This document shows positions 1,445 to 22,100 of a stretch of DNA of 23,013 nucleotides, in pieces. Both the position numbers and the translations under genes were made by a program. The DNA is from a virus, in IMG/VR virus record IMGVR_UViG_3300009332_000028, positions 1 through 23,013 of that record. One strand, given 5' to 3'. Position 1 is the stretch's first letter, and the number at the start of each line of letters is the position of its first letter. The notes under the pieces are model-generated. The model worked only from the letters and a program-made list of their open reading frames with translations, did no database searches and was not told the DNA's origin.

Positions 1445-1672
1445 ATGCCAAAAACTATTAAGTTAAAAGATATTTTAACAGAAAAAGAGCAGTTAAATGA
1501 AATGGATTACCAAAAATGGATTCCAATTCAAATAACGAACTTGTTGCCTATTATGGCGAAAATGAAAGACCATGTTAAGAAAGGTAACTATACAACAGTA
1601 AAGCGTGAATATATGAAATTTTACAAAATGGTATTATCTATTAAGAAATCAATTGATAATTTGGAGAAGTAA
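1445..1672 (+). CDS. Small helical protein with head-targeting-like N-terminus
   Basis: A 75-residue, lysine-rich, mostly helical protein with no recognised family. The N-terminus MPKTIKLKDILTEKEQLNE is a looser version of the leader shared by the small genes at 12064-19090: a basic stretch, then LKDIL, then candidate (I/L)xE cut sites at ILTE and QLNE. The start is supported by AGGAGAT about 8 bases upstream. It is the first gene after a copy of the recurrent intergenic motif and lies 3 bases before the giant fusion gene, so the two are probably co-transcribed. I infer a possible packaged internal-head protein. The body (from MDYQKW onward) gives no functional clue. Confidence 0.65.
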   Translation: MPKTIKLKDILTEKEQLNEMDYQKWIPIQITNLLPIMAKMKDHVKKGNYTTVKREYMKFYKMVLSIKKSIDNLEK

Positions 1673-4600: not shown

Positions 4601-5005
4601 GTTGATAATGAAAAGTTTCTTGATTGGGCTTTAACGTTTAACAAAACTGATCATGAAAAATACGTTAAACAAAATATGTTTCCTTTTGAAACTTTATTCT
4701 TTGAATTGGGTGCTGATATATTGAAAAATGTAAGTGGATTTATTGCATCCAATCCCGATAAAGCTGTACAGAAAATGAAGCAACAGCTTGATAAAGTTGT
4801 AACTGATATTAGGGCAGGAGGAGATATTTCAAAGATACAAAAAATGAAGACTCAGCTCGAAAAATTACAGGCTATCGGGGGGGCAGAAGCTATTGTACCG
4901 ACAGAGGGATTAGTATTCAAGTATAAAGGAAATATGTATAAGTTTACTGGGACCTTTGCTCCGATAAATCAACTTTTAGGAATGTTAAAATTTAGTGGCA
5001 GATAA
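1676..5005 (+). CDS. Multidomain enzyme: HxGH nucleotidyltransferase + Ap4A-hydrolase-like Nudix + ligase-like nucleotidyltransferase
   Basis: 1109 residues from a GTG start with GGAG upstream. In order: a short leader MSKLVEAIIE; a 20-56 module (KVGDKYVVYPKSGG...LGTH) seen in other phage proteins; a cytidylyltransferase/NMNAT-type fold at about 66-240, with GRFQPF at 75-80, then GPHH where HxGH is usual, and an ISxTxxR-like VSGTVMR at 209-215. At about 296-435 is a Nudix domain with the full box (G330, E336, R344-E345, E348-E349, G351). Its WGFPKGH entry and later FEHSAYKW match asymmetric Ap4A hydrolases. At 447-488 is VGDVILGGRFKNKKI, unassigned; 510-627 is unassigned and 630-670 is an acidic linker. 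The C-terminal part resembles covalent nucleotidyltransferases/ligases: EKMDG at 741-745 (K742 the AMP-accepting candidate), NLEIMW at 824-829, EGLVFKYKG at 1077-1085, YKFTG at 1088-1092. I infer nucleotide, NAD-type or RNA-end processing. The domain calls are firm for Nudix, good for the N-terminal enzyme and moderate for ligase. Confidence 0.85.
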   Translation: MSKLVEAIIEPFLTTETIKKVGDKYVVYPKSGGDRLGTHDTKEKALAQLRAIEASKNENLEEQKKIKKVIFCYGGRFQPFGPHHKGVYDYLVKKFGKDSVYITTSGIMKFPRHPMSFKEKVTHMVKMGVPKNRIVQERTPYIAANALDKYDPETTAVVYIFGAKDAGRLTSEKYFEDYKKNKGNLKGYKDVGYILTAPHVSVRVRGKEVSGTVMRQLLGSSKIDDDVRKKLFKQAFGYFNEKIFNIMVNKFKKIVESIGTGYPDEEDMKKIKKRVKKERNRTDSNEKYQYHPINEAKVHQSAGIIPFIRENNEIKLLLLKNNYGWGFPKGHLEENEKALEAAFRETREETGLKIKKVLPGFKHISKYLVKVDYEAGEKLDKPEMKFVLYFLGESPTKNVKLSFEHSAYKWVTAKEAKKLVKFADTKKAIDKVMSVLQKTEDINIPINVGDVILGGRFKNKKITVKSISWNEKGDALINGKPLMKYRLITKENIAEFIGRIGEETILELIREISYGVYGASGIVDDGPRYWWGNQKSYRINTEKEAAKLGWDVVDYIVPEEEFPEHDTGYPKGPTGTVTYFPAGKVGTKAGTGIMADKRGNEAWMLWAKNVNRAIEQLGFELVDYLGADNSITDTKDEPISDDDPRKEAPEDTEPRTEDEQHDDMEPVEEAAFSKDWWANQLLTDIEYSADPLDTRILLQCGGAAGHMSHPFDDWELTFKDFKNIINFGLSGQLNREDNVSEKMDGQNIMVSWRDGKLISARNKGHIKNAGKNALDVKGIMSKFKDRGDIRDAFVFAVKDLQSAISKLSDKQRQKIFMEGKAFMNLEIMWPKSANVIDYDIVALVFHGAIEYNDEGTPIGIVKGSARILEGMIRQINQHIQKHFKIEKPRFLDIPKHQDFGKRKKYYFNKLQKLQKQYALNDNDSFGLYHQRFWEEFIYNSAKQHKYKIPYNVLVGLTKRWAFFDKSYKIPRLKKDVDNEKFLDWALTFNKTDHEKYVKQNMFPFETLFFELGADILKNVSGFIASNPDKAVQKMKQQLDKVVTDIRAGGDISKIQKMKTQLEKLQAIGGAEAIVPTEGLVFKYKGNMYKFTGTFAPINQLLGMLKFSGR

Positions 5006-10700: not shown

Positions 10701-10812
10701 TATTGTAAAGTCAGAAGGATTGTTAGATCAGCTAAAGAAAAAATTCAAAAATCAAGAAAAGAAAAGCGGACTTTTAAGCGAAGATTTACTTTTTGTTGAA
10801 GAGGAGGCATAA
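7786..10812 (+). CDS. 20: Portal protein (T4 gp20 family) interrupted by two inteins
   Basis: 1008 codons. About 400 belong to two in-frame protein-splicing elements, leaving an extein of about 608 residues, a normal length for divergent T4-like portals. The portal forms the dodecameric ring at the special head vertex through which DNA is packaged and leaves, and it nucleates head assembly. Extein landmarks shared with T4 gp20 are LEDAM-like HRIMRAPEKRIFKIDIGN, LEDYYMPVRGG, GTEIDTLPG and the later TLAAEDVRFARTIERLQ. A charged C-terminal tail with SSLKGDWGGSEKDPQYSHHDFG follows. GAGGT sits upstream of the ATG at 7786. Both inteins sit in conserved segments of the portal, so splicing must work for head assembly to proceed. 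In-frame reading is intact throughout. Confidence 0.95.
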   Translation: MAEQNNNLFNRLKRLFGSSVVIRKTRDNQLVVKDVDFTQMGLTTNFIDRYTRVSSGAGWGRKYSAQQNAKNSYEIARNELFRDFEQMDSDPILSSALDIYSDESNITNVEGSVLSIKTDNAKLHRILHNLFFDILNIEFNLWSWLRNLTKYGDFFLLLDIADKYGILSVKPLSPYDVIRLEDHDPSDPKLVQYEIAGASDRNITPQGEKKLYENYEIAHFRLLSDSNFLPYGKSMLEGARKVWKQLTLMEDAMLIHRIMRAPEKRIFKIDIGNIPPNEVDNYMQKIINRMKKIPVIDQTTGEFNLRYNVEPIAWYSKIPLVDGRTITIKDLAKEHEQGKKNYVYSVDRDNNNSIRAGEVVWCGLTKKNANIVRVTINDNSYVDFEPEHPIMLSDGEYILAKNIQPGDSLMPFYTNISSEKNIGGYEKVFNPETNSYNFTHRVVANQYNIDNYINTSNVIHHSDFNKLNNIPENLTCTMTFEEYIRYHGNNASEMWNSETESERVRINHSVKSVEFLTERCDVYCMEVKDFHNFAIDSHGGVTRDGFFVKNSVLEDYYMPVRGGDSGTEIDTLPGLSNDNAIDDIEYLRNKMMAALKIPKAFLGYEEGLSGGKCLHPDTKIPLLDGKTKTIKEISDEFATNSDPDWWVYSYDVKTDSIIPAKIKMAEQTRKDAQLVRVYLDNDTHIDCTPDHNFVLKGGDEKQAQQLACGDSLQAVYRQNKKIANNSNEYEQIYQPNNHKVVRVEWLNERVDTYNMEVDNENHNYLLSTGIIIKNSTLAAEDVRFARTIERLQKIVVAELEKIAIIHLYTQGFSGVELLNFDLRLTNPSMIHEQEKLELLNQQVDIAQSAIENKLFSQNWIYENIFDLNEHQKKKLMSEIAADSKQKFRHTQIEDEGNDPFETGEKVDDDDENGASSLKGDWGGSEKDPQYSHHDFGNATSKDRKDATKYEREHFGKREFKGGSPLYLGKGSTIVKSEGLLDQLKKKFKNQEKKSGLLSEDLLFVEEEA
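8716..9435 (+). mobile_element. Intein 1 in gp20, with HNH homing endonuclease
   Basis: Lies between extein RYN and SVLEDYY of the portal (protein residues about 311-550). The C-side is clear: block F-like DVYCMEVKDFHNFAI, then GGVTRDGFFVKN with Ser as +1 residue. The N-side resembles block A (SKIPLVDGRTITIKDL), but there is no Cys or Ser where residue 1 should be: the candidates are P311 or A313, so the left boundary is uncertain by several codons. Block B reads EPEHPIML, with the usual Thr replaced by Glu. Between the splicing blocks is an HNH_3-type domain, HRVV then HHSDFNKLNNIPENL (H460, H461) then YHGNN. The penultimate residue is Lys, not His. I infer an active or recently active mobile intein with a non-standard first step. 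Confidence 0.85.
9622..10107 (+). mobile_element. Intein 2 in gp20, 162-residue mini-intein
   Basis: Lies between extein GLSGGK and STLAAEDVRF (protein residues 613-774). It begins with Cys1 in CLHPDTKIPLLDG (block A); block B is HIDCTPDHNFVL with the standard Thr-x-x-His. Block F is RVDTYNMEVDNENHNYLL and block G is TGIIIKN followed by Ser+1. It has no room for an endonuclease and none is seen, so it is a mini-intein that cannot home on its own. As in intein 1, the penultimate residue is Lys instead of the usual His. Boundaries are firm on both sides because the flanking extein rejoins to a typical T4-like portal segment. Confidence 0.92.
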
Positions 10813-12063: not shown

Positions 12064-12297
12064 ATGAAACTAACAAAATCAAAACTAAAAGAGATGATAA
12101 GAGAAGAATTACTGAATGAAAGATATATCGACCCAGACGATGCTGGTATAGTAATAGTTAATGCGATAGATGATTTAGAGATAGCTATCACGCGCGCAAA
12201 GAATCCTGAAAAATGGGCTGAAACTTACATCAGAAGTCTCCCGGGCTTTATCGATATGGCTGAACGTATAACTAAAATTTTACAAAAAATGAAATAA
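12064..12297 (+). CDS. Leader-bearing small protein 1 (putative packaged internal-head protein)
   Basis: 77 residues. The first 19, MKLTKSKLKEMIREELLNE, are the canonical form of the leader found on many small genes in this window; it ends in LNE, fitting gp21-type cleavage after (I/L)xE. The remaining 58-residue payload (RYIDPDDAGIVIVNAIDDLE...) is helical and of no recognised family. Strong GGAGG at the end of the upstream gene. It lies just before gp21 and the small beta protein, so leader genes flank the protease on both sides. T4 internal proteins IPI and IPIII carry a comparable 10-residue signal ending IAE. The role is inferred from that analogy. Confidence 0.75.
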   Translation: MKLTKSKLKEMIREELLNERYIDPDDAGIVIVNAIDDLEIAITRAKNPEKWAETYIRSLPGFIDMAERITKILQKMK

Positions 12298-12309
12298 CGG
12301 AGAATAATA

Positions 12310-12663
12310 ATGGGAAGATACCAAGCAGATCCAGATGACAATACAAAGTCATCACCAAAAAGTTTACCAACAAGGGCGTTCCAGCAAGTAACGTCACCAG
12401 CTGCTATGGCGGTTGTAGATAGACCAATATGGGTTTATATTGCAAATGAGGGAGATGGTGATATTTCCTTCGAGTTTGGTTCTGGGAGTGGGTACGTTAC
12501 ATTTTACACAAGGAGTGAGGCACCATCATTAACATTTGATACTGGTTCAACAAGTACCGCCGTATTTGAAGGAAATTTAGAGCGTCGTTTTGAAATTTCA
12601 CCTACATCGTGGAGCGGAAGCGCAGGCTCTGTTGTTAATTTTGTTTATCGAGGGGGAATTTAA
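12310..12663 (+). CDS. Small beta-rich virion-type protein
   Basis: 117 residues, rich in Ser, Gly, Thr and aromatic residues with alternating hydrophobic strands (WVYIANEGDGDISFEFG, VTFYTRSEAPSLTFDTG, RRFEISPTSWSG). No helix-rich region, membrane segment or leader. The composition fits a small beta-sandwich such as a decoration or head-surface protein, but no family is recognised. CGGAG lies 8-9 bases upstream of the ATG. The stop is one base before the gp21 ATG (TAAAATG), so the two are translationally linked. It is the only all-beta small protein in the head cluster and has no targeting leader, suggesting an external rather than an internal position. This is inference. Confidence 0.6.
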   Translation: MGRYQADPDDNTKSSPKSLPTRAFQQVTSPAAMAVVDRPIWVYIANEGDGDISFEFGSGSGYVTFYTRSEAPSLTFDTGSTSTAVFEGNLERRFEISPTSWSGSAGSVVNFVYRGGI

Positions 12664-12664
12664 A

Positions 12665-13276
12665 ATGGATAATCGCAAAATACTAGTAGATTACATTCCA
12701 TTTAATGTAACACCAAAACAAATTAATGAATCGTTATCAAAGAACAATGGAAAATTAGTAGTTTCTGGAGTATTACAACGTGCAGAAGCAAAAAATCAGA
12801 ATGGACGGGTTTATCCCCGTGAAACTTTAATGCGAGAAGCAAAGAAATATTCCGGAGTTCAGATCAAAGAACGTAGAGCATTGGGGGAACTTGATCATCC
12901 TGATTCATCTGTTGTCAATCTTCAAAACGCATCACATAATATTCTTGAAATGCATTGGAGCGGAAATGATTTGGTCGGTACTGTTGAAGTTTTAGGAACT
13001 CCGTCTGGAAATATTTTGAAAGAGCTATTTAAATCTGGGATTAAGCTCGGAATATCGAGTCGGGGATTGGGTTCAGTTAAGGAAATCGCTGAGGATAATA
13101 CAGTTGAAGTTCAGCCCGACTTCGAATTAATTGCCTTCGATTTCGTCAGCAACCCAAGTACACATGGAGCTTTCATGGCACCACTTAAAGAGGGCAAAGA
13201 GCATCAACAGGGCAGGACTTGTGGAAAGTGGTGTAAAGCTGAATCAATTATTAATTCTATTATGCACGGAGAATAA
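12665..13276 (+). CDS. 21: Prohead maturation serine protease (T4 gp21 family)
   Basis: 203 residues from the ATG at 12665; an upstream in-frame ATG at 12590 would overlap the previous gene by 74 bases and lacks a ribosome site, whereas GAGGGGGAAT precedes 12665. The fold markers are NGRVYPRETL, GELDHP with the catalytic His (H78), and GISSRGLGS with the catalytic Ser (S131/S132), followed by FELIAFDFVSNPS. This is the assemblin-like protease that digests the scaffold and trims gp23 and internal proteins inside the prohead. T4 gp21 cuts after (I/L)xE. Matching sites occur at the end of the small-protein leaders here and in gp23 (IKE61). A Cys pair near the C-terminus (CGKWC) is unusual and unexplained. 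Confidence 0.92.
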   Translation: MDNRKILVDYIPFNVTPKQINESLSKNNGKLVVSGVLQRAEAKNQNGRVYPRETLMREAKKYSGVQIKERRALGELDHPDSSVVNLQNASHNILEMHWSGNDLVGTVEVLGTPSGNILKELFKSGIKLGISSRGLGSVKEIAEDNTVEVQPDFELIAFDFVSNPSTHGAFMAPLKEGKEHQQGRTCGKWCKAESIINSIMHGE

Positions 13277-13278
13277 AG

Positions 13279-13722
13279 TTGAAATACAAAAAAATGATGA
13301 AGCAGATGCATAATCTCGACGTAAAGAAAGAAAAGAAAAAGCAAAAAGAGATTACAATTTCATTATTAGAGCAAATACAGAATGAAATTGATTCGTCTCC
13401 AGTAAAAGCTTTAATTAATGACGAGATTGATGAGGCAATGCCAGGACAGGGATTCAGTAGTCCAGAAGCACATGATATTTTGTTAAAAGAAGCATCGCGC
13501 TGGACTTCATATCTTAGAAAAGCTTCACATAAAATTATTAAAGAAATGGTAAATGGAGTTAAAACCGGAAAATATGATCCAATGGATATTGCAAGAACTG
13601 TAAATATAAAATATCTTAGTGTTGGACATGGATATGAGTTTGATTTTATAAAAGAATTGTGGTTAAAAGTAAGAGATAAATTTAGAAAGTATATATCAAA
13701 AGGTAAACTAAGGAGATACTAA
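13279..13722 (+). CDS. Hypothetical helical protein
   Basis: 147 residues from a TTG start, supported by GGAG at 13268-13271 and by following the gp21 stop by two bases; an ATG at 13294 is an alternative. The N-terminal 30 residues are very basic (KKEKKKQKE); the rest is helical, with no membrane segment or known motif. A central IDEAMPGQGFSSPEAHD breaks the helices. Basic character and the position directly after the protease suggest an internal or core head protein, but nothing shows this directly. It is the first gene of the accessory stretch between gp21 and gp22. Confidence 0.6.
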   Translation: MKYKKMMKQMHNLDVKKEKKKQKEITISLLEQIQNEIDSSPVKALINDEIDEAMPGQGFSSPEAHDILLKEASRWTSYLRKASHKIIKEMVNGVKTGKYDPMDIARTVNIKYLSVGHGYEFDFIKELWLKVRDKFRKYISKGKLRRY

Positions 13723-13723
13723 A

Positions 13724-14098
13724 ATGGCGAATAAAACGAGAGTGACAAATAAAGAAATTCTTGAAGCCTTGACTGAAATTGAGAAAAGGACACCGAATGG
13801 TGAATTATTATTGATTAAGAATGCTATCGAAAATTTACAAGAAGGTCAAGACGACCTAAAAGATGATTTACGGATTATTAAGAAACAGCTACTCGATCCC
13901 GATAAAGGCGTTATTGTTCGAGTAAATAAGAATACCGAAGATAGGCGATATTGGGAAAATAGAAAAGCAGAAATTGAAGACGCTTTCGATAACATGAAAT
14001 CGTTGTTGATGTGGAAGGGCGGCGTTAATAAAGCATTATGGATTGTATATACTGTTTTGATAGGCGCCGTAATAAGATATATTATATTAACAGTATAG
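13724..14098 (+). CDS. Tail-anchored coiled-coil membrane protein
   Basis: 124 residues. A charged helical, probably coiled-coil region (about 10-95) with the segment LLDPDKGVIVRVNKNTED, then one hydrophobic segment at the C-terminus (ALWIVYTVLIGAVIRYIILTV, about 103-123). The order coiled coil then C-terminal anchor is that of XhlA-type and related phage membrane proteins, which are sometimes linked to lysis, but I do not see enough to assign that family. GGAG sits 8-9 bases before the ATG, one base after the previous stop. It is one of several single-pass membrane proteins in this accessory stretch. Confidence 0.65.
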   Translation: MANKTRVTNKEILEALTEIEKRTPNGELLLIKNAIENLQEGQDDLKDDLRIIKKQLLDPDKGVIVRVNKNTEDRRYWENRKAEIEDAFDNMKSLLMWKGGVNKALWIVYTVLIGAVIRYIILTV

Positions 14099-14108
14099 GA
14101 GAAACAAA

Positions 14109-14333
14109 ATGAAACTAACAAAAACAAAACTCAAAGAGATGATTCGAGAAGAATTGTTGAATGAATATGATGACCGTAATCTAAAAAAAGAATTAGATAA
14201 TGCAAAAAAAAGAATTCAGGTTGCCTTGAATAAAGCAGAATTCAGTATTGAGCCAGAGAAAACTTATACAGAATTAGGTAAATTGGTAGATTGGATTAAG
14301 CGAACATTGAATAAATTAGAGAAACAATTATAA
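14109..14333 (+). CDS. Leader-bearing small protein 2
   Basis: 74 residues. Residues 1-19 are MKLTKTKLKEMIREELLNE, differing from the 12064 copy by a single residue (S6 to T), yet the payloads after LNE are unrelated by eye. This payload (55 residues, NLKKELDNAKKRIQ... to the end) is a lysine/glutamate-rich helix pair, perhaps a coiled coil. GGAG 8 bases upstream. Sharing a near-identical leader with different bodies is the core evidence for a modular targeting signal. Function beyond that is unknown. Confidence 0.75.
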   Translation: MKLTKTKLKEMIREELLNEYDDRNLKKELDNAKKRIQVALNKAEFSIEPEKTYTELGKLVDWIKRTLNKLEKQL

Positions 14334-14365
14334 TCAAAACTCAAAGATTAATTAGGAGAAAGGCA

Positions 14366-14893
14366 ATGACAACAAAACTAAAAGAACTACTTTATGAAGT
14401 ATTTGAAGATGAACAACCAAAAATCAATAAACGTGAAGTTATTGAAGGTGTATCTCAATATAGTATTGTAGGAAAGAAACTATATTCAGAGCATTCAATT
14501 CTTGAAATAGCAGAACAGTTGGTTAAAATTGCAGAATCAGCTCATTCTCATATTTTGTCTGAAACAGATGGTTGGTTTGATAAGGTTTCCGTTAACCGTA
14601 ACATGAAATCTTTATCAGGAATCGTTAAAGAGTTTAAGAAAACAGCTACTGAAGCTCATTCTGTAAATCAACGGCTTCAAGCTTTGTACGAAGATGCTGG
14701 ACATATTTTAAATCGCTACTATGAAATTAACGAAGAATCTGGAGATAAGGAAGAATATCAAGCGTTCTTTAGAAAAGCGTGCGAGAAATTTGGAATTGAT
14801 CCGGGAGATATTGATAATGTTGACGATGAAAAGAAAAAAGAACTGTTTAACTATGTAGACAAAAACTGGCAAGCGGACAAAGAAACCGATTAA
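14366..14893 (+). CDS. Head-cluster protein with leader-like N-terminus
   Basis: 175 residues. The N-terminus MTTKLKELLYEVFEDE is a divergent form of the targeting leader (basic start, LKELL, acidic end), with candidate cleavage points less clear than in the canonical copies. The body is helical and includes VNRNMKSLSGIVKEFKKTAT and HSVNQRLQALYEDAGHIL, which look conserved rather than random. I believe I have seen similar blocks in head clusters of other divergent T4-like phages, with no known function. Strong AGGAG upstream. The C-terminal 40 residues are acidic. Possibly a prohead core protein. Confidence 0.65.
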   Translation: MTTKLKELLYEVFEDEQPKINKREVIEGVSQYSIVGKKLYSEHSILEIAEQLVKIAESAHSHILSETDGWFDKVSVNRNMKSLSGIVKEFKKTATEAHSVNQRLQALYEDAGHILNRYYEINEESGDKEEYQAFFRKACEKFGIDPGDIDNVDDEKKKELFNYVDKNWQADKETD

Positions 14894-14905
14894 GGAGCAA
14901 ACGAA

Positions 14906-15211
14906 ATGAAAATAACAAAATCAAAGCTAAAAGAAATAATTCGAGAAGTTATTGACGAAGCACTTGACCCAGTTGATACAGATGAAGTTGAACCAGAAGA
15001 TGACTTTGAAGATAGAGAAGATAAAGACATCGATAATGACGGTGATACTGATGATAGTGATGAATATATTCATAAGAAAAGAAAAGCTATCACAAAGGCA
15101 GTCAAATCAACAAAAGAATCTATGGATAGACGACCAAAGAAACGATTGAAAGACATTGGTAATGTTGTGAATGGTATTCCTTCACTTGGGGATATGATTA
15201 AGAATAAATAA
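14906..15211 (+). CDS. Leader-bearing acidic protein with EF-hand-like loop
   Basis: 101 residues. The leader MKITKSKLKEIIREVIDE ends in IDE and is followed by an Asp/Glu-rich segment. At about residues 40-52 is DIDNDGDTDDSDEY, the D-x-D-x-D-G pattern of EF-hand and dockerin calcium loops, then a basic helix (KKRKAITKAVKST). An acidic segment with this loop followed by a basic helix recurs in small head proteins of T4-like phages as far as I recall. It could bind divalent ions in the prohead or simply be an acidic spacer. GGAG upstream; 12 bases after the previous stop. Confidence 0.72.
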   Translation: MKITKSKLKEIIREVIDEALDPVDTDEVEPEDDFEDREDKDIDNDGDTDDSDEYIHKKRKAITKAVKSTKESMDRRPKKRLKDIGNVVNGIPSLGDMIKNK

Positions 15212-15229
15212 ACTGAGGAGTTTACGAAA

Positions 15230-15490
15230 ATGAAACTAACAAAAAGTAAATTAAAAGAGATTATAAGAGAAGAATTGTTGAATGAGGCAGAGTTAGATGA
15301 TGTAGTATATGATTTCTTACAAGAAATTGGTCCAAATTTTAATAAATGTCGAAAAGCCAATATGAAAGTTTTCAAAGAGTATTCAAAAAAACATAAGGGA
15401 TTTGAGAAATATTTAAAATCGCAAGCAATGCAGAACTCAGATGAATATATATGGGACTTGATGACAGGTAAAGTAGGATTGTCAATGTAG
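15230..15490 (+). CDS. Leader-bearing small protein 4
   Basis: 86 residues. Leader MKLTKSKLKEIIREELLNE, then a 67-residue payload starting AELDDVVYDFLQ. The payload is helical and basic toward the C-terminus (KEYSKKHKGFEKYLKS), with one cysteine and no known family. GAGGAG upstream. It is the last gene before the 29-residue membrane peptide and the actin-like gene; only one base separates its stop from the next ATG. Confidence 0.75.
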   Translation: MKLTKSKLKEIIREELLNEAELDDVVYDFLQEIGPNFNKCRKANMKVFKEYSKKHKGFEKYLKSQAMQNSDEYIWDLMTGKVGLSM

Positions 15491-15491
15491 C

Positions 15492-15581
15492 ATGCCAGAA
15501 CTACTAATATACAGTTTACTCATTTGGCAAATAATATTAGGAATTTGGTTACTCTTAAAAAAGTTACAGGAGATACAATAA
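15492..15581 (+). CDS. 29-residue single-pass membrane peptide upstream of actin-like gene
   Basis: The frame ATG 15492 to TAA 15579-15581 encodes 29 residues that are almost all one hydrophobic helix, YSLLIWQIILGIWLLLKKL, with a basic end. Its stop overlaps the actin-like start as TAATG, so the two are probably coupled. The best evidence that it is real is similarity to the membrane segment of the gene at 16735, on the other side of the actin-like gene: about 13 of 22 positions are identical, including YS, WQ and LGI. The ribosome site is poor (AGGA about 14 bases upstream), so it may depend on translation of the preceding gene. The role is unknown; a membrane anchor or small holin-like peptide is possible. 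Confidence 0.6.
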   Translation: MPELLIYSLLIWQIILGIWLLLKKLQEIQ

Positions 15582-16603
15582 TGGCAAAAGGTCTTGACTG
15601 TGGTACAAGTTACTACATAGCAGCTACAGAAGATACATTAAAGAAACAAAGAAATGTATTCTTAACTGTTGATGGTGATGCTCAACAAGTAAAAAGAATG
15701 TTGAAAAGACAAAAGATTCCATTTGTGGAAAAAGCAGGTAAAGTTCATATCGTTGGACAACATGCTTTTAACTACGCACAGATATTTCAGTCTGCTAAAT
15801 TGAGACGTCCAATGAAATCTGGATTATTGAATCCAGACGAGAGAGATTCATTGCCAATTCTCAACGCAATCATCGGTGAATTACTCGGAAAGGCAGAAAA
15901 AGACGAAATATGCGTATATTGTGTTCCAGCAAAGCCTATTGATCAGAATCGAAGAGTTGATTATCATGAAGATGTATTGAAAACAATTATCGAGGGGTAT
16001 GGGTATAAAGCAAAAAAGATTGAGGAGGGTGTAGCTTTGGCATATGATTCACTACTTGATAATAATTTAACTGGAATTGCAATCTCAATGGGAGCTGGAC
16101 TCTGCAATATTTGTGTGATGTACGCTGGAATTACAGCAGTATCGTTTTCAGTAACGCGCGGTGGAGATTGGGTGGACACTAATGTTAGTATGGACACAGG
16201 TGTTCCAATTGCAAAAGTTCAAAACATAAAAGAAACTTCAAATTTATTAGACTTGAAAGCGTCAGCGATAAACGATATTTACCAGGAAGAATCAGACGAG
16301 TATAATGTATTACACGCAATACGGAGTTATTATTCAGCGCTTATTAATTATTTGTTTGTAAATTTAGTTAATCAATTTAATAATACTAAGAATGTTCCTA
16401 ATTTTCAAAGCTCAATACCTATAGTTTTTGGTGGGGGAACTTGTCTTGTTAAAGGTTTTTTAGATATAGTAAATGAACAATTTGATCAGGAAAATTTCCC
16501 TATTCCAGTTTCTAATATTATACTTGTTAATGACGCTCATTATGCAGTTGCCCGTGGATGTCTTAATGAAGCACTGTTAATTCAGGAAGAATTTAGTGAA
16601 TAA
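15581..16603 (+). CDS. Actin-like ATPase (ParM/MreB/Hsp70 fold)
   Basis: 340 residues from the ATG at 15581, chosen over the in-frame ATG at 15524 because AGGAG lies 11 bases before it and homology to the fold starts here. Phosphate-1 loop is GLDCGTSYY (4-12). The connecting helix is EEGVALAYDSLLD (148-160, E149 at the usual catalytic Glu). The phosphate-2 region is ISMGAGLCNI (168-177), where the usual Asp of DxGxG is Ser169. The adenosine motif is VFGGGTCLVKGF (282-293). The length and motif order fit a filament-forming actin homologue rather than a kinase. Known phage actins act in DNA positioning; this one lies inside a head-gene cluster, flanked by related membrane proteins. The fold call is strong; polymerisation and role are inferred. 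Confidence 0.85.
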   Translation: MAKGLDCGTSYYIAATEDTLKKQRNVFLTVDGDAQQVKRMLKRQKIPFVEKAGKVHIVGQHAFNYAQIFQSAKLRRPMKSGLLNPDERDSLPILNAIIGELLGKAEKDEICVYCVPAKPIDQNRRVDYHEDVLKTIIEGYGYKAKKIEEGVALAYDSLLDNNLTGIAISMGAGLCNICVMYAGITAVSFSVTRGGDWVDTNVSMDTGVPIAKVQNIKETSNLLDLKASAINDIYQEESDEYNVLHAIRSYYSALINYLFVNLVNQFNNTKNVPNFQSSIPIVFGGGTCLVKGFLDIVNEQFDQENFPIPVSNIILVNDAHYAVARGCLNEALLIQEEFSE

Positions 16604-16733
16604 AATAACTTACCACATATGTAGTATTGAATATCATGTTAATAGACAAAGAAAACAAGAAATTATTGGTTTTCTTGGTTGTAAATTTATTGAATTAAAA
16701 GAATCACAATTGATATCGGAGGAAACAACTTAA
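16596..16733 (+). CDS. Small hypothetical protein overlapping the end of the actin-like gene
   Basis: 45 residues from GTG 16596 to TAA 16731-16733. The start overlaps the actin-like stop by 8 bases and has AGGAAG about 7 bases upstream, the arrangement expected for a coupled gene. The protein begins with a Cys/His-containing segment (ITYHICSIEYHV) and ends acidic; no family is recognised. Without it there would be a 131-base gap in an otherwise gapless operon. It is short enough to be chance, so confidence is moderate. Confidence 0.45.
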   Translation: MNKITYHICSIEYHVNRQRKQEIIGFLGCKFIELKESQLISEETT

Positions 16734-16734
16734 A

Positions 16735-17043
16735 ATGAATCCTCATTTACATCATTTAGAACACTTAATACTTTACAGTTTAGTATTATGGCAAGCTGTA
16801 TTGGGTATCAAAATATTATTAAAATATTTATCAAAGAAAGAGACTAAAGATATATCATTTCAACAAACTTCATTAATGGCTAATGAAGTTAGAGAAATTG
16901 AAGATACTAGAAAAGTAATTGAAACCGATTTTAGCAGAGATATATTTGTCGGAAAAGCAGATTCGGAAAATGTAGAATCTGATGAAGTTGTTAAAGGCGA
17001 AGTTAAAACACAGAAAGACAAGCTTAGGAGAATTTTAAAATGA
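16735..17043 (+). CDS. Single-pass membrane protein downstream of actin-like gene
   Basis: 102 residues. The N-terminal hydrophobic segment (LILYSLVLWQAVLGIKILL, about 10-28) is related to the 29-residue peptide upstream of the actin-like gene. After it comes a hydrophilic, probably cytoplasmic tail of about 70 residues rich in Glu and Lys (KETKDIS..., EVREIEDTRKVIETDF). GGAGG lies 12 bases before the ATG. The stop overlaps the next leader gene as ATGA. Bracketing of the actin-like gene by two related anchors suggests a membrane attachment for it. That is inference from gene order, with no direct binding motif seen. Confidence 0.7.
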   Translation: MNPHLHHLEHLILYSLVLWQAVLGIKILLKYLSKKETKDISFQQTSLMANEVREIEDTRKVIETDFSRDIFVGKADSENVESDEVVKGEVKTQKDKLRRILK

Positions 17044-17312
17044 AAATAACAAAATCAAAACTCAAAGAAATCATTAGAGAAGAAATTCAAAAGTTGAATG
17101 AAGCTGAACGATATGTAGATAGTAAAGCCAAACCTCTAGAAGTAGGTGGGTGGTATATATTTACGTTAGGAAAGAGGGATAATGTAAGAGTAATGAAGGT
17201 AGAAAAGAAAGGAGTTACTATCTTTAGTCAAAAGGATTTAACAAGATTATTTATTCCAGCAACGACCTGGAAAAGGAAACATTTTGGAGGGTATTTTACT
17301 AGGAGCAAATAA
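17040..17312 (+). CDS. Leader-bearing small basic protein 5
   Basis: 90 residues. The leader has the longer form: MKITKSKLKEIIREEI then QKLNE. The payload after LNE (AERYVDSKAKPLEVGGWYIF...) is basic and strand-rich, with VGGWYIFTLG and RVMKVEKKGVTIF suggesting a small SH3-like or OB-like barrel; it ends KRKHFGGYFTRSK. It could bind nucleic acid, but no family is recognised. The start overlaps the upstream stop (ATGA), and AGGAG lies about 12 bases before it. The first 44 bases are nearly identical to the copy at 17314. Confidence 0.75.
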   Translation: MKITKSKLKEIIREEIQKLNEAERYVDSKAKPLEVGGWYIFTLGKRDNVRVMKVEKKGVTIFSQKDLTRLFIPATTWKRKHFGGYFTRSK

Positions 17313-17357
17313 AATAAAAATAACAAAATCAAAACTCAAAGAAATCATTAGAGAAGA
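17040..17357 (+). repeat. Duplicated leader-coding segment (17040-17083 and 17314-17357)
   Basis: Two 44-base segments that differ at one position, 43/44 identical. The single difference is the third base of the start codon (ATG in the first copy, ATA in the second). The interval between them is the payload of the first gene. This indicates recent duplication of the leader rather than convergence. Confidence 0.85.
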
Positions 17358-17571
17358 GCTCAGCGAAGTTGAATATGCTCATCCACATAACGATAAAGAA
17401 TTTACGGCGCTTTTAGTAAAATGTGATGATATGAGTAAGGCATTAAAAAAATATCTAAAAACTCCAGGAATGGTTCAGGATAAGCAATGGAAAAAAACAG
17501 GAGCAGATGTGTTAAAAGCATATAATAAATATGATATGATAATGAAACGGTTATATAATGAAAAACTGTAG
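17284..17571 (+). CDS. Leader-bearing small protein 6 with lost ATG start
   Basis: By comparison with every other copy the leader should start at 17314, with AGGAG 8-9 bases upstream, but the codon there is ATA. From there it reads IKITKSKLKEIIREELSEVE, then the payload YAHPHNDKEFTALLVKCDD and a lysine-rich helix. An in-frame TTG at 17284, with AAGGAAA upstream, would add ten residues (MEGILLGANK) before the leader and overlap the previous gene by 29 bases. Either TTG is used, or ATA initiates weakly, or the gene is decaying. The coding frame is otherwise intact. The leader's end, SEVE, is a weaker match to (I/L)xE than in the other copies. Confidence 0.65.
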   Translation: MEGILLGANKIKITKSKLKEIIREELSEVEYAHPHNDKEFTALLVKCDDMSKALKKYLKTPGMVQDKQWKKTGADVLKAYNKYDMIMKRLYNEKL

Positions 17572-17583
17572 GAGAATATAACA

Positions 17584-18123
17584 ATGAAAAGAGTAACAGT
17601 TAAAGAAATTAGGAGATTTATGAAAACGCTAGAAGAAAATCGATATAGAAAGCTTGTTATAGCGGACGCAAGACGGGTTGCTTGGTTTGTTAATAATAGT
17701 ATGTCGGAAGAATATGATTTAATGCCTAATTCATTAAGAAAAAAATGGGAACATGCGAAGTATGGTAAAGAACGATATGTTGCGAGTAAGTACTTAGAAT
17801 CAATTAAAAAAAATGAATCAGTTGTAGGAAAAATTAGAGAAATCATCAGAGAAGAAATTAAAAGATTAAGTGAAGAAAAATTATCAAGTGGGGAATACCA
17901 ACAGCTAGCAAAAGAATTCGCAGCTGAGCATAAACGAACTATTATTGATATAGTTAAGGATATGGGATATATTGATATCCAATCTATGGTACAAGATACT
18001 GTTAGGGCCCTACAATATGATCCTGAGTATAAAGGAAGAGTTAGTGGTGATTGGCTGTATAATGCAATTGAAAAGGAATTAAAAAAACAACCTTGGTTTA
18101 AAAAGTTAGGAGTAAAATTATGA
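17584..18123 (+). CDS. Hypothetical protein with an internal leader-like segment
   Basis: 179 residues. The first 75 residues (MKRVTVKEIRRFMKTLEE...) form a basic helical region. At about 80-97 is VVGKIREIIREEIKRLSEE, which matches the second half of the shared leader and ends in LSE. A third part (GEYQQLAKEFAAEHKRTI...WLYNAIEKELKKQPWFKKLG) is a compact helical domain. This looks like a leader-payload gene to whose front another coding segment was added, or a protein cut at an internal site by gp21. No recognised family. GGAG upstream supports the ATG at 17584; the stop overlaps the next start (ATGA). Confidence 0.65.
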   Translation: MKRVTVKEIRRFMKTLEENRYRKLVIADARRVAWFVNNSMSEEYDLMPNSLRKKWEHAKYGKERYVASKYLESIKKNESVVGKIREIIREEIKRLSEEKLSSGEYQQLAKEFAAEHKRTIIDIVKDMGYIDIQSMVQDTVRALQYDPEYKGRVSGDWLYNAIEKELKKQPWFKKLGVKL

Positions 18124-18305
18124 AATTAACAAAAACAAAACTAAAACAAATCATTCGTGAAGAACTACTGAATGAAAATAAAGGAAAGAGTGAAGCTACT
18201 AAAATAATCAATAAATGGAGGCGCTCATTATTCCCAAAGTTAAATGAAGATGAGATGTGGGAATTCGGTGTAGCTATGAGGGAATTCTTTAAGGAATATA
18301 AATAA
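18120..18305 (+). CDS. Leader-bearing small protein 7
   Basis: 61 residues. Leader MKLTKTKLKQIIREELLNE followed by only 42 payload residues (NKGKSEATKIINKWRRSLF...). The payload is basic then acidic, helical, with aromatic residues, and has no known family. AGGAG about 9-10 bases before the ATG and an ATGA overlap with the upstream stop. One of the smallest complete members of the set. Confidence 0.72.
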   Translation: MKLTKTKLKQIIREELLNENKGKSEATKIINKWRRSLFPKLNEDEMWEFGVAMREFFKEYK

Positions 18306-18306
18306 A

Positions 18307-18585
18307 ATGATTAAACTTAAAGAACTACTCACAGAAGCCTTGGGGACCAGACATCCAAGCGGCCATCCAGGTCAAGTTGGAATCAAAAAGGGAACCAAAG
18401 TAGAATTATTTGATGGGACCATTGCAGTTGTAATCGGAAGACTATTTCCGAGATCAAATGTACTTCAAGGAACAGTGGAAAGGTTAGGAAAGAATAAAGA
18501 TAAAAAAAATATTGATGGAAAGAAAGCCAAAATTGGTGATACAATTCAATTTAGTAAAACATATGTAATGAGGAAATTAAAATGA
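18307..18585 (+). CDS. Small basic beta protein with short leader
   Basis: 92 residues. The N-terminus MIKLKELLTE is a short variant of the leader, ending in LTE just before Ala, and similar in length to the 10-residue T4 internal-protein signal. The payload is basic (many Lys/Arg) and strand-rich: KKGTKVELFDGTIAVVIGRL, then KAKIGDTIQFSKTYVMRKLK, resembling an SH3/KOW-type barrel, possibly nucleic-acid binding. AGGA about 12 bases before the ATG; the previous stop is one base away. Family not identified. Confidence 0.68.
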   Translation: MIKLKELLTEALGTRHPSGHPGQVGIKKGTKVELFDGTIAVVIGRLFPRSNVLQGTVERLGKNKDKKNIDGKKAKIGDTIQFSKTYVMRKLK

Positions 18586-18752
18586 AAATAACAAAAACAA
18601 AACTTAAAGAAATCATAAGAGAAGAAATTCAGAAGTTGAATGAGAGTGTCGATACTTTGTATGTATATGCAACTACATCGAATGACCATAAAAAATTCAA
18701 AAAGTGGTTATCTAAAAGTGAATTTTATGGAGAAGAATTCAGAATCGGTTAG
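18582..18752 (+). CDS. Leader-bearing microprotein 8
   Basis: 56 residues. The leader has the long form (MKITKTKLKEIIREEI then QKLNE) and is followed by just 35 payload residues, SVDTLYVYATTSNDHKKFKK and WLSKSEFYGEEFRIG. The start overlaps the previous stop (ATGA), with GAGG about 11 bases upstream. The payload's strand-then-charged pattern (TLYVYATT) is too short to assign. It could be a complete microprotein or a payload truncated by a stop; no open frame follows that would extend it. Confidence 0.65.
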   Translation: MKITKTKLKEIIREEIQKLNESVDTLYVYATTSNDHKKFKKWLSKSEFYGEEFRIG

Positions 18753-18779
18753 ATATGAAGTGGAATAGGAGCAAATATA

Positions 18780-19090
18780 ATGAAACTAACTAAACACAAT
18801 TAAGAGAACTCATTAGAGAAGAAATTCAAAAGTTGGATGAAGCACCTAAAAGAGATTCACAATATCTATCCAGAAATGCAGAATTTCTAGCAAAAGATAT
18901 GAGACGTGATGATCCAGATTATGCTGAGGTTATGGGGCAGGTTGCAACAAGGCTTAATCAATCATATCCAGATGGTGATGTATCAAAAAAAGAAGTCGTT
19001 GATATCCTAAAAGATTCGAGAATTAAAAGAGAAATGCGAAAAATAAATATGAGCGCACAACAAATCGTTGATGAGTTGTGGAATATTTAA
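18780..19090 (+). pseudogene. Leader-bearing gene 9 with a 1-base frameshift inside the leader
   Basis: AGGAG and ATG at 18780 are in the expected places, but the frame stops after seven codons (TAA 18801-18803). Adding one A to the AAA run at 18792-18794 restores a complete leader, MKLTKTQLRELIREE then IQKLDE, joined to the open frame that runs to 19090. The payload (about 85 residues from the leader's DE: APKRDSQYLSRNAEFLAKDM... to the end) is intact and helical. It could still be made without leader from the TTG at 18833. Causes could be a real mutation, a homopolymer sequencing error, or ribosome slippage. The payload family is unknown. Confidence 0.7.
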
Positions 19091-19123: not shown

Positions 19124-19345
19124 ATGCCAAAGAAAAAGAAAGATAAGTTTCAGGGACTCTACGTTGAAGTCAAAAATAATAATATAGAATTTGCACTTCG
19201 GCAATTAAAGCAAAAAGTCAAAGATAGTAATTTATTGGTAGAGTTAAGAGAGAAGTCGTATTACACAAAACCATCAGAAAAACGTAGACGAGCTAAAAAT
19301 TTAGCTAAAAGTAGGGCAAAATATAATAAAGAAAATGAAAAATAA
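19124..19345 (+). CDS. rpsU: Ribosomal protein bS21, phage-encoded
   Basis: 73 residues. Shows the whole bS21 pattern: a strand with YVEVKNNNIEFALRQLKQKV, then LLVELREKSYYTKPSEKRRR and a basic tail (AKNLAKSRAKYNKENEK). In bacteria bS21 sits on the 30S platform next to the anti-Shine-Dalgarno end of 16S rRNA and helps initiation. Phage copies of bS21 are known, including from aquatic T4-like phages, and are thought to replace the host protein and steer ribosomes to phage messages. Very strong GGAGG upstream. It is the last gene before the gp22-gp23 transcription unit. It has no targeting leader, so it is expected to act in the infected cytoplasm. Confidence 0.93.
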   Translation: MPKKKKDKFQGLYVEVKNNNIEFALRQLKQKVKDSNLLVELREKSYYTKPSEKRRRAKNLAKSRAKYNKENEK

Positions 19346-19494: not shown

Positions 19495-20382
19495 ATGGGC
19501 GATCTATTGAAAGAAGCCATTGCTGATGCTAAAGCTGTACGTGAAACTGCTCTAGCGAATGCTAAAATGGCGTTAGAAGAAGCATTTACTCCACATCTCC
19601 AATCGATGCTATCAGCTAAACTTCGTGAAGATGAAGATGAAGAATTCGAAGATGAAGTCCCTGTAGAGGATGAAGAAGAAATCGAAGTTGAAGAGGAAGA
19701 AGTCGAAGATGAAGTTCCTGTAGAAGACGAAGAAGAAATCGAAGTCGAAGAGGAAGAAGACATTGAAGATGAGGAAGAAATTGGAGATCTTGATCTTGAA
19801 GCTATTATCAAAGAACTTGAAGATGAACTCGTTGAAGATGAAGAGTTTGAAGACGAAGCTGAAGAAGAGGAATTTGAAGCTGAAGCTGAAGTTGAAGACG
19901 AAGAAGAGGAATTCGAAGTTGATGAATCTCTTTTTGAGGAAGACGAAGACGAAGAAGAAGCTGAAGAAGAAGCTGAAGAAGTAGCTGAAGCTGAAGAAAT
20001 CGAAGAAATCAAAGCTGAACTCAAAGAGTACAAAGAAGCTGTTCATTTCTTGAAAGATAAACTTCATGAGATTAACATCCTAAATGCTAAACTTCTATTC
20101 ACAAATAAACTGTTTAAGGAATTTGCACTTGACAATAACCAGAAACTTAAAGTCGTAGAAACATTTGATAGAGCACAAACAACTCGCGAAATCAAACTTG
20201 TTTACACTACATTAGCTGAGAGTTTTCAGAGCGGTGATGTTATAGTACGCAAATCGAAAATTAAAGAATCCGCAAGTAGAAAAACTGGATCAACTAAGCC
20301 TTCCAAAGAATCAAAGAAAGTGATTACAGAGGAAGTTGAAGTTGCAGAAAGGTTTAGAAAACTTGCAGGATTAATCAAATAA
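19495..20382 (+). CDS. 22: Prohead core scaffold protein (T4 gp22 family)
   Basis: 295 residues directly before gp23. The N-terminal helix (MGDLLKEAIADAKAVRETAL) is followed by about 130 residues made mostly of Glu and Asp with Val/Ile/Phe, then a helical C-terminal domain (EYKEAVHFLKDKLHEINILN ... VAERFRKLAGLIK). The order (short helical start, acidic low-complexity middle, helical domain with LKEFALDN...KLKVVETF) matches T4-like scaffolds, which form the core around which gp23 assembles and are then degraded by gp21. The acidic region contains a 57-base tandem repeat. AGGAG 8-9 bases upstream. An Ala/Glu-rich coiled-coil segment at about 150-170 is typical of the family. Confidence 0.88.
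   Translation: MGDLLKEAIADAKAVRETALANAKMALEEAFTPHLQSMLSAKLREDEDEEFEDEVPVEDEEEIEVEEEEVEDEVPVEDEEEIEVEEEEDIEDEEEIGDLDLEAIIKELEDELVEDEEFEDEAEEEEFEAEAEVEDEEEEFEVDESLFEEDEDEEEAEEEAEEVAEAEEIEEIKAELKEYKEAVHFLKDKLHEINILNAKLLFTNKLFKEFALDNNQKLKVVETFDRAQTTREIKLVYTTLAESFQSGDVIVRKSKIKESASRKTGSTKPSKESKKVITEEVEVAERFRKLAGLIK
19648..19761 (+). repeat. 57-base tandem repeat in the scaffold acidic region (two units)
   Basis: Units 19648-19704 and 19705-19761 encode 19 residues each (EDEVPVEDEEEIEVEEEEV, and the same ending in D), protein residues 52-70 and 71-89. The few base differences are nearly all silent, showing a duplication that is under protein-level constraint. It adds a charged spacer to the scaffold. 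Confidence 0.9.
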
Positions 20383-20405: not shown

Positions 20406-22100
20406 ATGTCAAAATATATTAATGAAGCGCTACTTGGAACAGCTGGATATCAAAAACAGCGAGACCAAGCAAAAGCGCTTACTGAAAAATGGGACAAAAC
20501 TGGTCTACTTGATGGTCTTGAAGGTGACTTCGATCGAGGTGGAATGGCACAACTTCTTGAAAACCAGGCACGTGAGCTTATTAAAGAAGCTTCCTCAACA
20601 AGCCCTTCAGCTGGTTCAGCCGGCGCATATAAGGGTGATGAGGAATGGTCTGGTGTAGCACTTCCATTAGTTCGTAGAATTTTTGGTGAGATTGCTGCTC
20701 AAGAATTTGTTTCTGTTCAACCAATGAATTTACCATCAGGTCTTGTATTCTATCTTGATTTCCAATATGGTTCGAACCGTATGGGATTTGATGATAGTAA
20801 ATCAATTCATGGTAAAACTGGTAAATACAGTCCTTCTGGTTCATCTGCACCTTACGGTGAAGACAGTTATGCTGGCGGTTTCTATGGCGCAGGTCGTTAT
20901 GGATACACAATGGCAACTGGTTCAGATACAACACTTGATATCGCAAGTGCAGCACAAGCTACATGGAAAGACATCAATTTCAATTCTGAATTAAGTTCAT
21001 CTGTAAATGCTGGTGAAATCTTTAAAGTTACTAGTGCTATTACAGCAACTAATGTAGATAAGCTTGCTATTAGAGCAGCTGTTATCGCATCTGGTTCAAT
21101 TAGTGCAGGAAATCCAAATGGTGCCGATATTGGTGCTGGAGATGCAATTAACAGAGTATTTCCAGAACTATTCTCGATTGATGGTACAGACGGTGTAGCA
21201 GGAACACTTACATGGTTCGCTTCTGCCTCATCAGCTGATGATTTCATTGACGAATCAATGACTCTACATTATCCAAAATACACTACAGAAGCAGTTCGTG
21301 GTGACTTTGAAGATACTACAGGTGATGCTACATCAGATTCTTTACAGATTCCGCAAGTAGATATCGAATTGAAATCTAGAGCAATTGTTGCTAAAACCAG
21401 AAAGCTGAAAGCTGTATGGACACCTGAATTAGCTCAAGACTTGAATGCTTATCATTCTGTTGACGGTGAAGCTGAATTGACATCAATGTTAACTGAATAC
21501 GTATCAATGGAAATCGATCTTGAAATCCTCGATATGCTTATCAGTGATGCTCAAACAGTTGACTATTGGTCAGCAAAAATTGGTAACGAATATAACGCAG
21601 CAAATAATGCATTTAGCACATCTGCTGGCGGAACATTCACAGGTACCAAATTCGAATGGTGGCAGACACTTATTGGTAAAGTTCAGAAAGTATCCAATGA
21701 AATTCATAAATTAACACTGCGTGGTGGAGCAAACTTTGTTGTTTGTGGCCCAACTGTAGCTACAATTCTTGAATCTCTACCAGGATATATGGCTGATACT
21801 GATGGTGATAAACAACAGTTCGCTATGGGCGTACAGAAAATCGGTGGAATTTCAAACCGCTGGACAGTTTACAAGAATCCGTATATGACTGAAAATACAA
21901 TTCTTGTTGGTTTCCGCGGAAGTAACTTCCTTGAAACTGGTGCTGTATATGCTCCATATGTACCACTTATCATGACACCTCTTGTATACGATCCTAACGA
22001 CTTTACTCCACGTAAAGGCGTAATGACACGATATGCCAAGAAAATGGTTCGACCAGAATTTTACGGAAAAATCTATGTAGATGGATTAGATCTGGTATAA
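20406..22100 (+). CDS. 23: Major capsid protein (T4 gp23 family)
   Basis: 564 residues, HK97-fold major capsid protein of the T4 family. Landmarks are WSGVALPLVRRIFGEIAAQ, FVSVQPMNLPSGLVFYLDFQ, ELKSRAIVAKTRKLKAVWTPE, LTRGGANFVVCGP-like RGGANFVVCGPTVATIL, and the C-terminal APYVPLIMTP...FTPRKGVMTRYAKKMVRPEF. The first 61 residues form a propeptide ending LIKE, so gp21 cleavage is predicted between E61 and A62, close to the position in T4 (65). This supports use of the (I/L)xE rule for the small-protein leaders. AGGAG upstream. Expected to be the most abundant virion protein; it is followed by the only strong terminator in the window. Residues 120-300 include a Gly/Ser/Ala-rich insertion. Confidence 0.97.
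   Translation: MSKYINEALLGTAGYQKQRDQAKALTEKWDKTGLLDGLEGDFDRGGMAQLLENQARELIKEASSTSPSAGSAGAYKGDEEWSGVALPLVRRIFGEIAAQEFVSVQPMNLPSGLVFYLDFQYGSNRMGFDDSKSIHGKTGKYSPSGSSAPYGEDSYAGGFYGAGRYGYTMATGSDTTLDIASAAQATWKDINFNSELSSSVNAGEIFKVTSAITATNVDKLAIRAAVIASGSISAGNPNGADIGAGDAINRVFPELFSIDGTDGVAGTLTWFASASSADDFIDESMTLHYPKYTTEAVRGDFEDTTGDATSDSLQIPQVDIELKSRAIVAKTRKLKAVWTPELAQDLNAYHSVDGEAELTSMLTEYVSMEIDLEILDMLISDAQTVDYWSAKIGNEYNAANNAFSTSAGGTFTGTKFEWWQTLIGKVQKVSNEIHKLTLRGGANFVVCGPTVATILESLPGYMADTDGDKQQFAMGVQKIGGISNRWTVYKNPYMTENTILVGFRGSNFLETGAVYAPYVPLIMTPLVYDPNDFTPRKGVMTRYAKKMVRPEFYGKIYVDGLDLV

Follow-up and report, generated by a model that had tools for sequence, protein, structure and literature searches.

Why do small genes lying between and around the head genes of a phage begin almost identically and then diverge completely? 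The question is raised by an IMG/VR virus record of 23,013 bases, the whole of which was analyzed and is called the window here. It carries a T4-type head operon comprising a terminase, a portal, an S77/gp21-type protease, a scaffold-like acidic gene and the major capsid protein (MCP). An intact, ATG-started leader, MK(L/I)TK(S/T)KLK(E/Q)(M/I)IRE, opens seven window genes, each of which scores >37 bits with a position-specific scoring matrix (PSSM) seeded from the window. When 35 window N-termini were compared in all pairs without the PSSM, the same seven genes interlinked in 21 pairs, versus none after shuffling. Judged from its sequence and its surroundings, the leader is probably a capsid-targeting propeptide of the T4 type, hugely amplified, a reading to which we give a probability of about 0.8.

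A leader shared by many proteins

The sequence-only reading had counted nine near-equal leaders. Seven are intact, but the leader of the gene at 17314 starts with ATA and that of the gene at 18780 is frameshifted. At 17314 the leader is in frame, the sole standard in-frame start upstream is a TTG at 17284, AGGAG precedes the ATA, and a homologue in locus L071 has a leader with V at its first position. At 18780 the ATG frame stops after MKLTKHN, and a different frame encodes the rest of the leader, TQLRELIREEIQKLDEA. L108 has the same ATA, and both L108 and L049 have the frameshift. Over the genes compared, these two loci match the window at 100% identity and hence are not independent phages; the recurrence argues against a one-off assembly slip. 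The frameshift may mark a tag in decay or a site of recoding, or it is a sequencing problem common to these contigs. The divergent short leaders that had been pointed out at 1445, 14366 and 18307 are present, and relatives of the 1445 gene have the full leader.

Leaders were counted in 206 records, of which nearly all came from leader or protease searches, plus the window and pieces of it. Of the 43,480 candidate starts, 509 N-termini matched, compared with ~1 to 5 when the PSSM columns were permuted. The 509 include duplicates; once nine duplicate loci had been dropped (L001-L006, which are window pieces, and L080, L199 and L179, which are present under another identifier), 476 open reading frames (ORFs) encoding 445 distinct proteins remained, to which L108 and L049, being near-identical to the window, contribute only the proteins that differ. 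Leader ORFs numbered 406 in 120 leader-scan loci and 61 in 79 protease-fetched loci (in 34 of them); 120 loci (978 kb of viral DNA) picked with an arbitrary 14-mer yielded none scoring at least 12 bits. Non-redundant sequences made up 319 of the 416 proteins of at least 60 aa.

In IMG/VR, at least 120 stretches fit the exact degenerate DNA pattern of the leader; among bacterial and archaeal genomes (257 Gb) a single place fits it. We also built a 70-sequence leader profile (E 0.01), whose matches were not each confirmed as N-terminal. With it, the 23 leader-found IMG/VR records of at least 70 kb gave 3 to 27 matches each (median 7, sum 190) and the 484-kb phage LR756508 gave 13, and no match was found in 25 random long contigs. 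The record with 27, the most among the IMG/VR records (G003, the 242-kb record of L020), has two adjoining MCP genes at 139-143 kb. A tblastn search of INPHARED with the 21-residue leader gave no match even at E 10, but with so short a query and the low-complexity filter on, this is not readable as absence.

The single bacterial-genome match, L206 (NHDW01000006.1), lies on a 306-kb contig, C5, binned into a Methylococcaceae metagenome-assembled genome (TMED69). This genome has 30 leader matches, and among the matches listed all are on C5, with a dense array at ~184-213 kb; its S77 protease, MCP and TerL matches are likewise all on C5. Because the head genes and leader matches of that genome sit on C5, the contig is viral. 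It resembles a large phage, and its place in a Methylococcaceae genome is probably a binning error.

Payloads behind the leader

Tagged proteins range from ~65 to 327 aa (5th-95th percentile). The 145 non-redundant payloads scanned, part of 168 eligible ones (110-700 aa) among the 319 proteins, showed no common alignment behind the leader, which, together with the interlinking of 7 of the 35 window N-termini, bears out the suggestion that the leader is modular. Pfam matches of the 145 fell into 29 families, and the 25 shown were each found in one member, many of them as overlapping repeat models; they included pentapeptide and leucine-rich repeats, L,D-transpeptidase, GNAT, zeta toxin and FliG_C. 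One terminase match, the TerL N-terminus of L184, probably reflects a false positive of the PSSM. In the window, Pfam matches of ten tagged or leader-bearing genes were all sub-threshold. The PHROG matches of 14906 were to unknown-function families and to a single cytidyltransferase family (E 2.7e-6); those of 14366 were weak, to two unknown-function families. With L108 and L049 excluded, eight of the nine tagged window payloads had 0-2 homologues among the fetched loci, 14906 being the exception; the homologues of the 12064 payload, in L031 and L177, are also tagged.

Could the tagged proteins be structural parts of the prohead core (scaffold), like T4 gp67 and gp68, that are never delivered as effectors? 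The tagged genes sit among the window head genes, many encode small, charged proteins, some leader-bearing genes are conserved (14366, with 35 matches), and T4 core proteins are also gp21 substrates (PMC9026906). Strictly tagged genes, however, are poorly conserved, as the eight window payloads illustrate, and among the 319 non-redundant proteins a few match enzyme or repeat folds. Such fast turnover, or 27 tagged genes in one record, is unexpected of core parts, and we consider this explanation unlikely.

Candidate cut sites and payload joints

T4 gp21 cuts after L/I-x-E (PMC9026906). That the leaders here end in cut sites of this type had been proposed, and the xxE pattern proved specific for E over D and for spacing. 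[LIV]xE occurs in residues 14-26 of 228 of the 319 non-redundant proteins (71%), versus 37 of 319 in residues 27-39, and in 11-17% over four downstream stretches. When residues 16-26 were compared with residues 27-37, the counts were 227 against 25 for E and 28 against 51 for D. E was raised 9-fold at +2, and ~2-, 4- and 1.7-fold at +1, +3 and +4. This enrichment was alike in leaders within the scan pattern (102 against 9 of 133) and leaders outside it (125 against 16 of 186). LxE followed by Ala was found 44 times, versus 4 and 2 in control stretches. Mere continuation of the helix may contribute to the pattern, but a preference for E rather than D, or for +2 rather than +3, would not obviously follow from it.

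Comparison of homologues places payload joints at or near the same kind of site. The 1445 payload stands behind MPKTIKLKDILTEKEQLNE in the window and behind a full leader, MKMTKSKLKEIIREEILNE, in L036 and L200 (identical sequences), where its homologous part starts directly after LNE. The 14906 payload, ALDPVDTDEVEPEDDF, forms the C-terminal part of a 14366 homologue in L171 and L175 (identical), L183, L162 and L148. These fusions are joined at ...IDE(VVDE)/ALD, and the window 14906 leader ends VIDE/ALD. The window 14366 gene has another C-terminal stretch after YEINE, common to L136 and L173, where L171, for example, has the acidic part of 14906 type instead. The internal leader-like form noted earlier at 17584 is also present: in this family (11 matches in the homology search, L108 included) a comparable helix stands behind a domain of ~80 aa in all six relatives compared, in L175 after an inserted stretch, and is followed by varied tails or by little.

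Fit to the T4 targeting sequence

T4 ipII and ipIII start MKTYQEFIAE/A, and T4 gp24 starts MAKINELLRES (record sequence). Aligned by hand, MKTYQEFIAE/A matches the window 18307 start, MIKLKELLTE/A, without a gap. Read in this register, the long leader is the T4 core with four extra N-terminal residues, the key positions being hydrophobic 8, 11 and 12 and E14. In T4 IPIII, point changes assigned targeting chiefly to residues 4 and 7 and processing to residues 8 and 10; Asp at position 10 blocked processing but not targeting (PMC9026906). To avoid circularity, only the other ten positions were used to pick leaders from protease-fetched loci, which gave 37; positions 8, 11 and 12 were hydrophobic in 37, 37 and 36 of them and E14 was present in 24, against background frequencies at starts in random loci of 0.36, 0.35, 0.23 and 0.05. 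Over all 319 proteins the corresponding counts are 319, 315, 319 and 296, figures that the search itself partly ensured.

Co-occurrence with the S77 protease

A phrog_207 protease was found in 17 of 23 leader-chosen records of at least 70 kb, these being all leader-scan records of that length among the matches listed, versus 4 of 25 random contigs of at least 40 kb (p 1e-4). The L206 genome and LR756508 (chosen by capsid protein), which stand outside this count, both have the protease. The expectation that the leader always accompanies a gp21-family protease was borne out in 17 of the 23 records; the protease is missing from the other six. All six also lacked an MCP in a search that matched six of seven positive-control records, the seventh, G014, being a contig that ends just behind the protease; we did not find the leader to be common without gp21. 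All 114 leader ORFs in protease loci lie on the protease strand, which one-strand operons alone would also give. Conversely, four random contigs with the protease had no leader-profile match, and phage Mel-JY01 had one partial match (E 0.0067). Since there are protease-bearing contigs and phages without the leader, the leader marks a subset of gp21 phages.

A leader that resembles a charged amphipathic helix might instead be an uncut interaction helix serving a target outside the head, such as a host protein, a membrane, the nucleoid or a phage compartment. The preference for E but not D and the specific spacing at the putative cut, the joints at xxE, the co-occurrence with the S77 protease and the T4 register all speak against this, and leave the uncut helix quite improbable. 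Recent duplication of one ancestral small protein whose C-terminal parts then diverged would suit the clustering of small genes on one strand; with no common payload alignment, the wide range of lengths and homologues that carry other leaders or are fused, we judge it very unlikely.

The peptide rather than the DNA is kept

The consensus of 434 distinct tagged proteins of at least 45 aa is MKITKSQLKQIIKEEL, with information near background from about residue 17. Residue 16, outside the searched block, is L, I or V in 81% of tagged proteins. Over 71 loci, the proportion of synonymous differences (pS) was 0.67 in the leader versus 0.74 in unrelated payload codons, and that of nonsynonymous differences (pN) 0.22 versus 0.72, although the low pN and the conservation of residues 2-15 are partly built in because those residues were searched for. 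Among the seven window leaders, 315 codons compared gave 76 synonymous and 58 residue-changing differences. Synonymous sites are thus nearly as diverged as in payloads, so conservation acts on the peptide and not on the DNA. Conservation of the shared 5' ends at the DNA or RNA level, as a translation enhancer or a recombination or homing site, would fit the recurrence of near-identical starts in one genome but was rejected on this synonymous divergence as extremely improbable.

How firmly the leader can be read as a targeting tag

The shared leader, the cut-site pattern, the joints and the co-occurrence with the protease together support the earlier proposal of a cargo tag, as far as sequence comparison can. 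Besides the part of the conservation that the search itself built in, several results weigh against it. Six of the 23 long leader-chosen records lack the protease, and one of them, G016, has TerL near its contig end. The protease contrast is weaker when matched for length (17 of 23 versus 3 of 10 random contigs of at least 70 kb, p 0.026), and 45 of the 79 protease-fetched loci, many of them short, have no leader. E14, with only 24 of 37 in protease-fetched loci, is the weakest key position. The second LxE is absent in 29% of proteins, and some of the L/E pattern could stem from the helix running on. The 1445 payload of L201 does not start at an xxE but six residues behind its short leader, MIKLKELLKE. 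Few payloads have a recognizable function. Finally, the leader profile at E 0.01 found no match in T4, S-WAM1 or RM378; because it misses T4, the case for kinship to the T4 tag depends on a short alignment, ~10 residues, made by hand.

Most likely, the tag steers proteins into the growing head and is then cut off, for carriage into the next bacterium. By analogy with T4, its N-terminal amphipathic helix, with hydrophobic positions 8, 11 and 12, would dock the tagged protein on the prohead core. A gp21-type protease, for which we propose the window S77 protease (12665..13276), would then cut after the I/L-x-E of the helix (IRE14), after a second L-x-E, mostly at residues 18-22, or after both. 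As in T4, the cut would free the payload inside the head, where it would stay with the DNA until delivery at infection. New cargo might be gained by joining a coding sequence behind the cut site, either as a tagged gene of its own or as a tail on a head-cluster protein. The payloads may have an anti-host function.

On a broader view, widespread uncultured T4-like and larger phages may run an open cargo system. In such a system, a degenerate address plus a cut site would make almost any coding sequence head-borne and injected, with up to ~30 cargoes per genome, and cassettes would shift between stand-alone genes, alternative leaders and head-protein tails at protease sites. Hundreds of payloads would then form a catalogue of effectors acting against the host in the first minute. 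We see the chances of this wider picture as evenly balanced. If the cargo-tag reading is true, a sequence signature alone would predict head-borne phage proteins, which otherwise need proteomics, and hundreds of anonymous small phage genes would become candidate injected effectors. The T-even Ip strategy would then be general and far larger in environmental phages, and phage heads could be loaded with proteins by means of a new natural tag, the leader.

Known systems and a cultured relative

We found no report of this leader in the open-licence literature. The nearest known system is the gp21-cut T4 capsid-targeting sequence of IPI, IPII, IPIII and the Alt propeptide. It too is a short N-terminal propeptide common to unrelated proteins, with hydrophobic targeting positions followed by L/I-x-E and a protease of the gp21 family. 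Portable onto foreign proteins, it has been used to package them and has been suggested to let T4-like phages take various proteins into their heads (PMC9026906). The leader described here is longer (16 shared residues) and often has a second LxE, and T4 has three IPs plus Alt where long records here have 3-27 matches.

In T-even relatives, at least ten Ip proteins with an N-terminal packaging signal have been reported, of which Ip1-3 share the leader only and block type IV restriction enzymes (PMC12373910). Likewise, the ip loci are hotspots where small proteins without homology to one another carry a packaging leader at the N terminus. They differ from the present case, in which there are hundreds of payloads, mostly without known domains and known from sequence alone, and in which those of the window lie inside the head operon. 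The number of cargo genes and the portability of the tag had been put forward as novel; the T-even Ips and the T4 tag precede both, but scale, joints at cut sites and spread go beyond them. What is new here is the scale, the leader sequence itself and the payload joints at cut sites, the kind being known from the T-even Ips.

In SPN3US and phiKZ, head and ejection protein propeptides are also cut after x-x-E by a gp21 relative, and SPN3US gp53 and gp54 share 15 N-terminal residues (PMC5694885). Unlike the leader, these propeptides are mostly long (111-254 aa), the two sharers are paralogues and the motif is A-x-E. An N-terminal packaging signal of P1 DarB (between 9 and 30 aa) brings a heterologous protein into the head; its authors found no consensus among Dar N-termini (PMC9024508).

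Flavobacterium phage immuto, a cultured relative with an S77 protease 50% identical, makes the cargo-tag reading testable. Shared N-termini of the same pattern as the leader occur there in two four-gene sets, M(E/A)..F(D/N)L(K/R)(K/S)FL(V/T)EN(K/R)LT and MKKSQLRQIIKEAL-like, with only one leader-profile match (E 8e-7), in one of those genes. Immuto differs in having its own leader sequences and fewer tagged genes. The pair test was noisy in immuto (43 pairs versus 16 after shuffling, some of them signal peptides), and a shared-N-terminus test requiring Shine-Dalgarno sites gave only one irrelevant pair. A loose N-terminal motif occurred in 19 of 209 ORFs, versus 8, 5 and 4 in downstream stretches, and the 26 kb up to the head genes hold 11 of the 19, among them the protease itself. 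At immuto position 109812 (L336), a gene annotated as 5'-nucleotidase (NT5C) starts with the leader-like MKKVMGNLADLLLEES and is a possible enzymatic cargo.

The window and its head-gene cluster

The leader-bearing genes and the head genes that bear on their processing are collected in Table 1. That gp21, gp22 and gp23 share one cluster had been stated before; gp21 (PF03420) and gp23 are there, but the gp22-like gene has no family match. By profile, the window terminase is phrog_2 and the portal phrog_213 plus PF07230. The capsid protein itself has a probable propeptide, with a predicted cut at ...ARELIKE/A.

Table 1. Leader-bearing genes and selected head genes of the window.
Feature	Position	Strand	Details
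Divergent-leader gene	1445..1672	+	leader MPKTIKLKDILTEKEQLNE
Tagged gene	12064..12297	+	leader MKLTKSKLKEMIREELLNE (12064-12120), then payload
gp21-type prohead protease (Peptidase_S77)	12665..13276	+	phrog_207 E 3e-55; PF03420 E 9.5e-29; PDB 5jbl E 5.7e-17
Tagged gene	14109..14333	+	leader MKLTKTKLKEMIREELLNE (14109-14165)
Conserved head-cluster gene	14366..14893	+	short leader MTTKLKELLYE; core ends ...YEINE; 35 homologue matches
Tagged gene	14906..15211	+	leader ending ...VIDE, then acidic payload ALDPVDTDEVEPEDDF
Tagged gene	15230..15490	+	leader MKLTKSKLKEIIREELLNE (15230-15286)
Tagged gene	17040..17312	+	leader MKITKSKLKEIIREEIQKLNE (17040-17102)
Tagged gene, ATA leader start	17314..17571	+	leader IKITKSKLKEIIREELSEVE
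Gene with internal leader-like helix	17584..18123	+	~80-aa conserved domain, helix at ~17833-17874 IREIIREEIKRLSE, variable C-terminal stretch
Tagged gene	18120..18305	+	leader MKLTKTKLKQIIREELLNE (18120-18176)
Short-leader gene	18307..18585	+	MIKLKELLTE/A; length and spacing as in the T4 IPII/IPIII leader
Tagged gene	18582..18752	+	leader MKITKTKLKEIIREEIQKLNE (18582-18644)
Tagged gene, leader broken by frameshift	18780..19090	+	payload frame open from 18833
Candidate gp22-like scaffold	19495..20382	+	suggested by position and acidic composition; no family match
Major capsid protein (gp23 type)	20406..22100	+	phrog_138 E 5e-67

Other genes of the window have features of their own. The portal gene (7786-10812) matches the intein splicing domain PF14890 in two stretches and also HNH endonucleases, and the portal protein probably holds two intein insertions. 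The gene at 1676-5005 encodes a 1109-aa fusion of cytidyltransferase-like and Nudix parts with candidate xxE/A sites between parts (for example PINE/A and PVEE/A), and may be a head polyprotein; its C-terminal part has what we take, by eye, to be a ligase-like KxDG motif. Within the head cluster, the product of 15524-16603 belongs to the Volactin family (PF25216, E 2.3e-74), whose name suggests an actin-like protein; it is 72-74% identical in several relatives, and sequence search gave no solved relative. Adjoining the scaffold-like gene, 19124-19345 encodes a ribosomal protein S21 homologue; in Microcystis phage Mel-JY01 the RpsU gene likewise lies between the protease and capsid genes.

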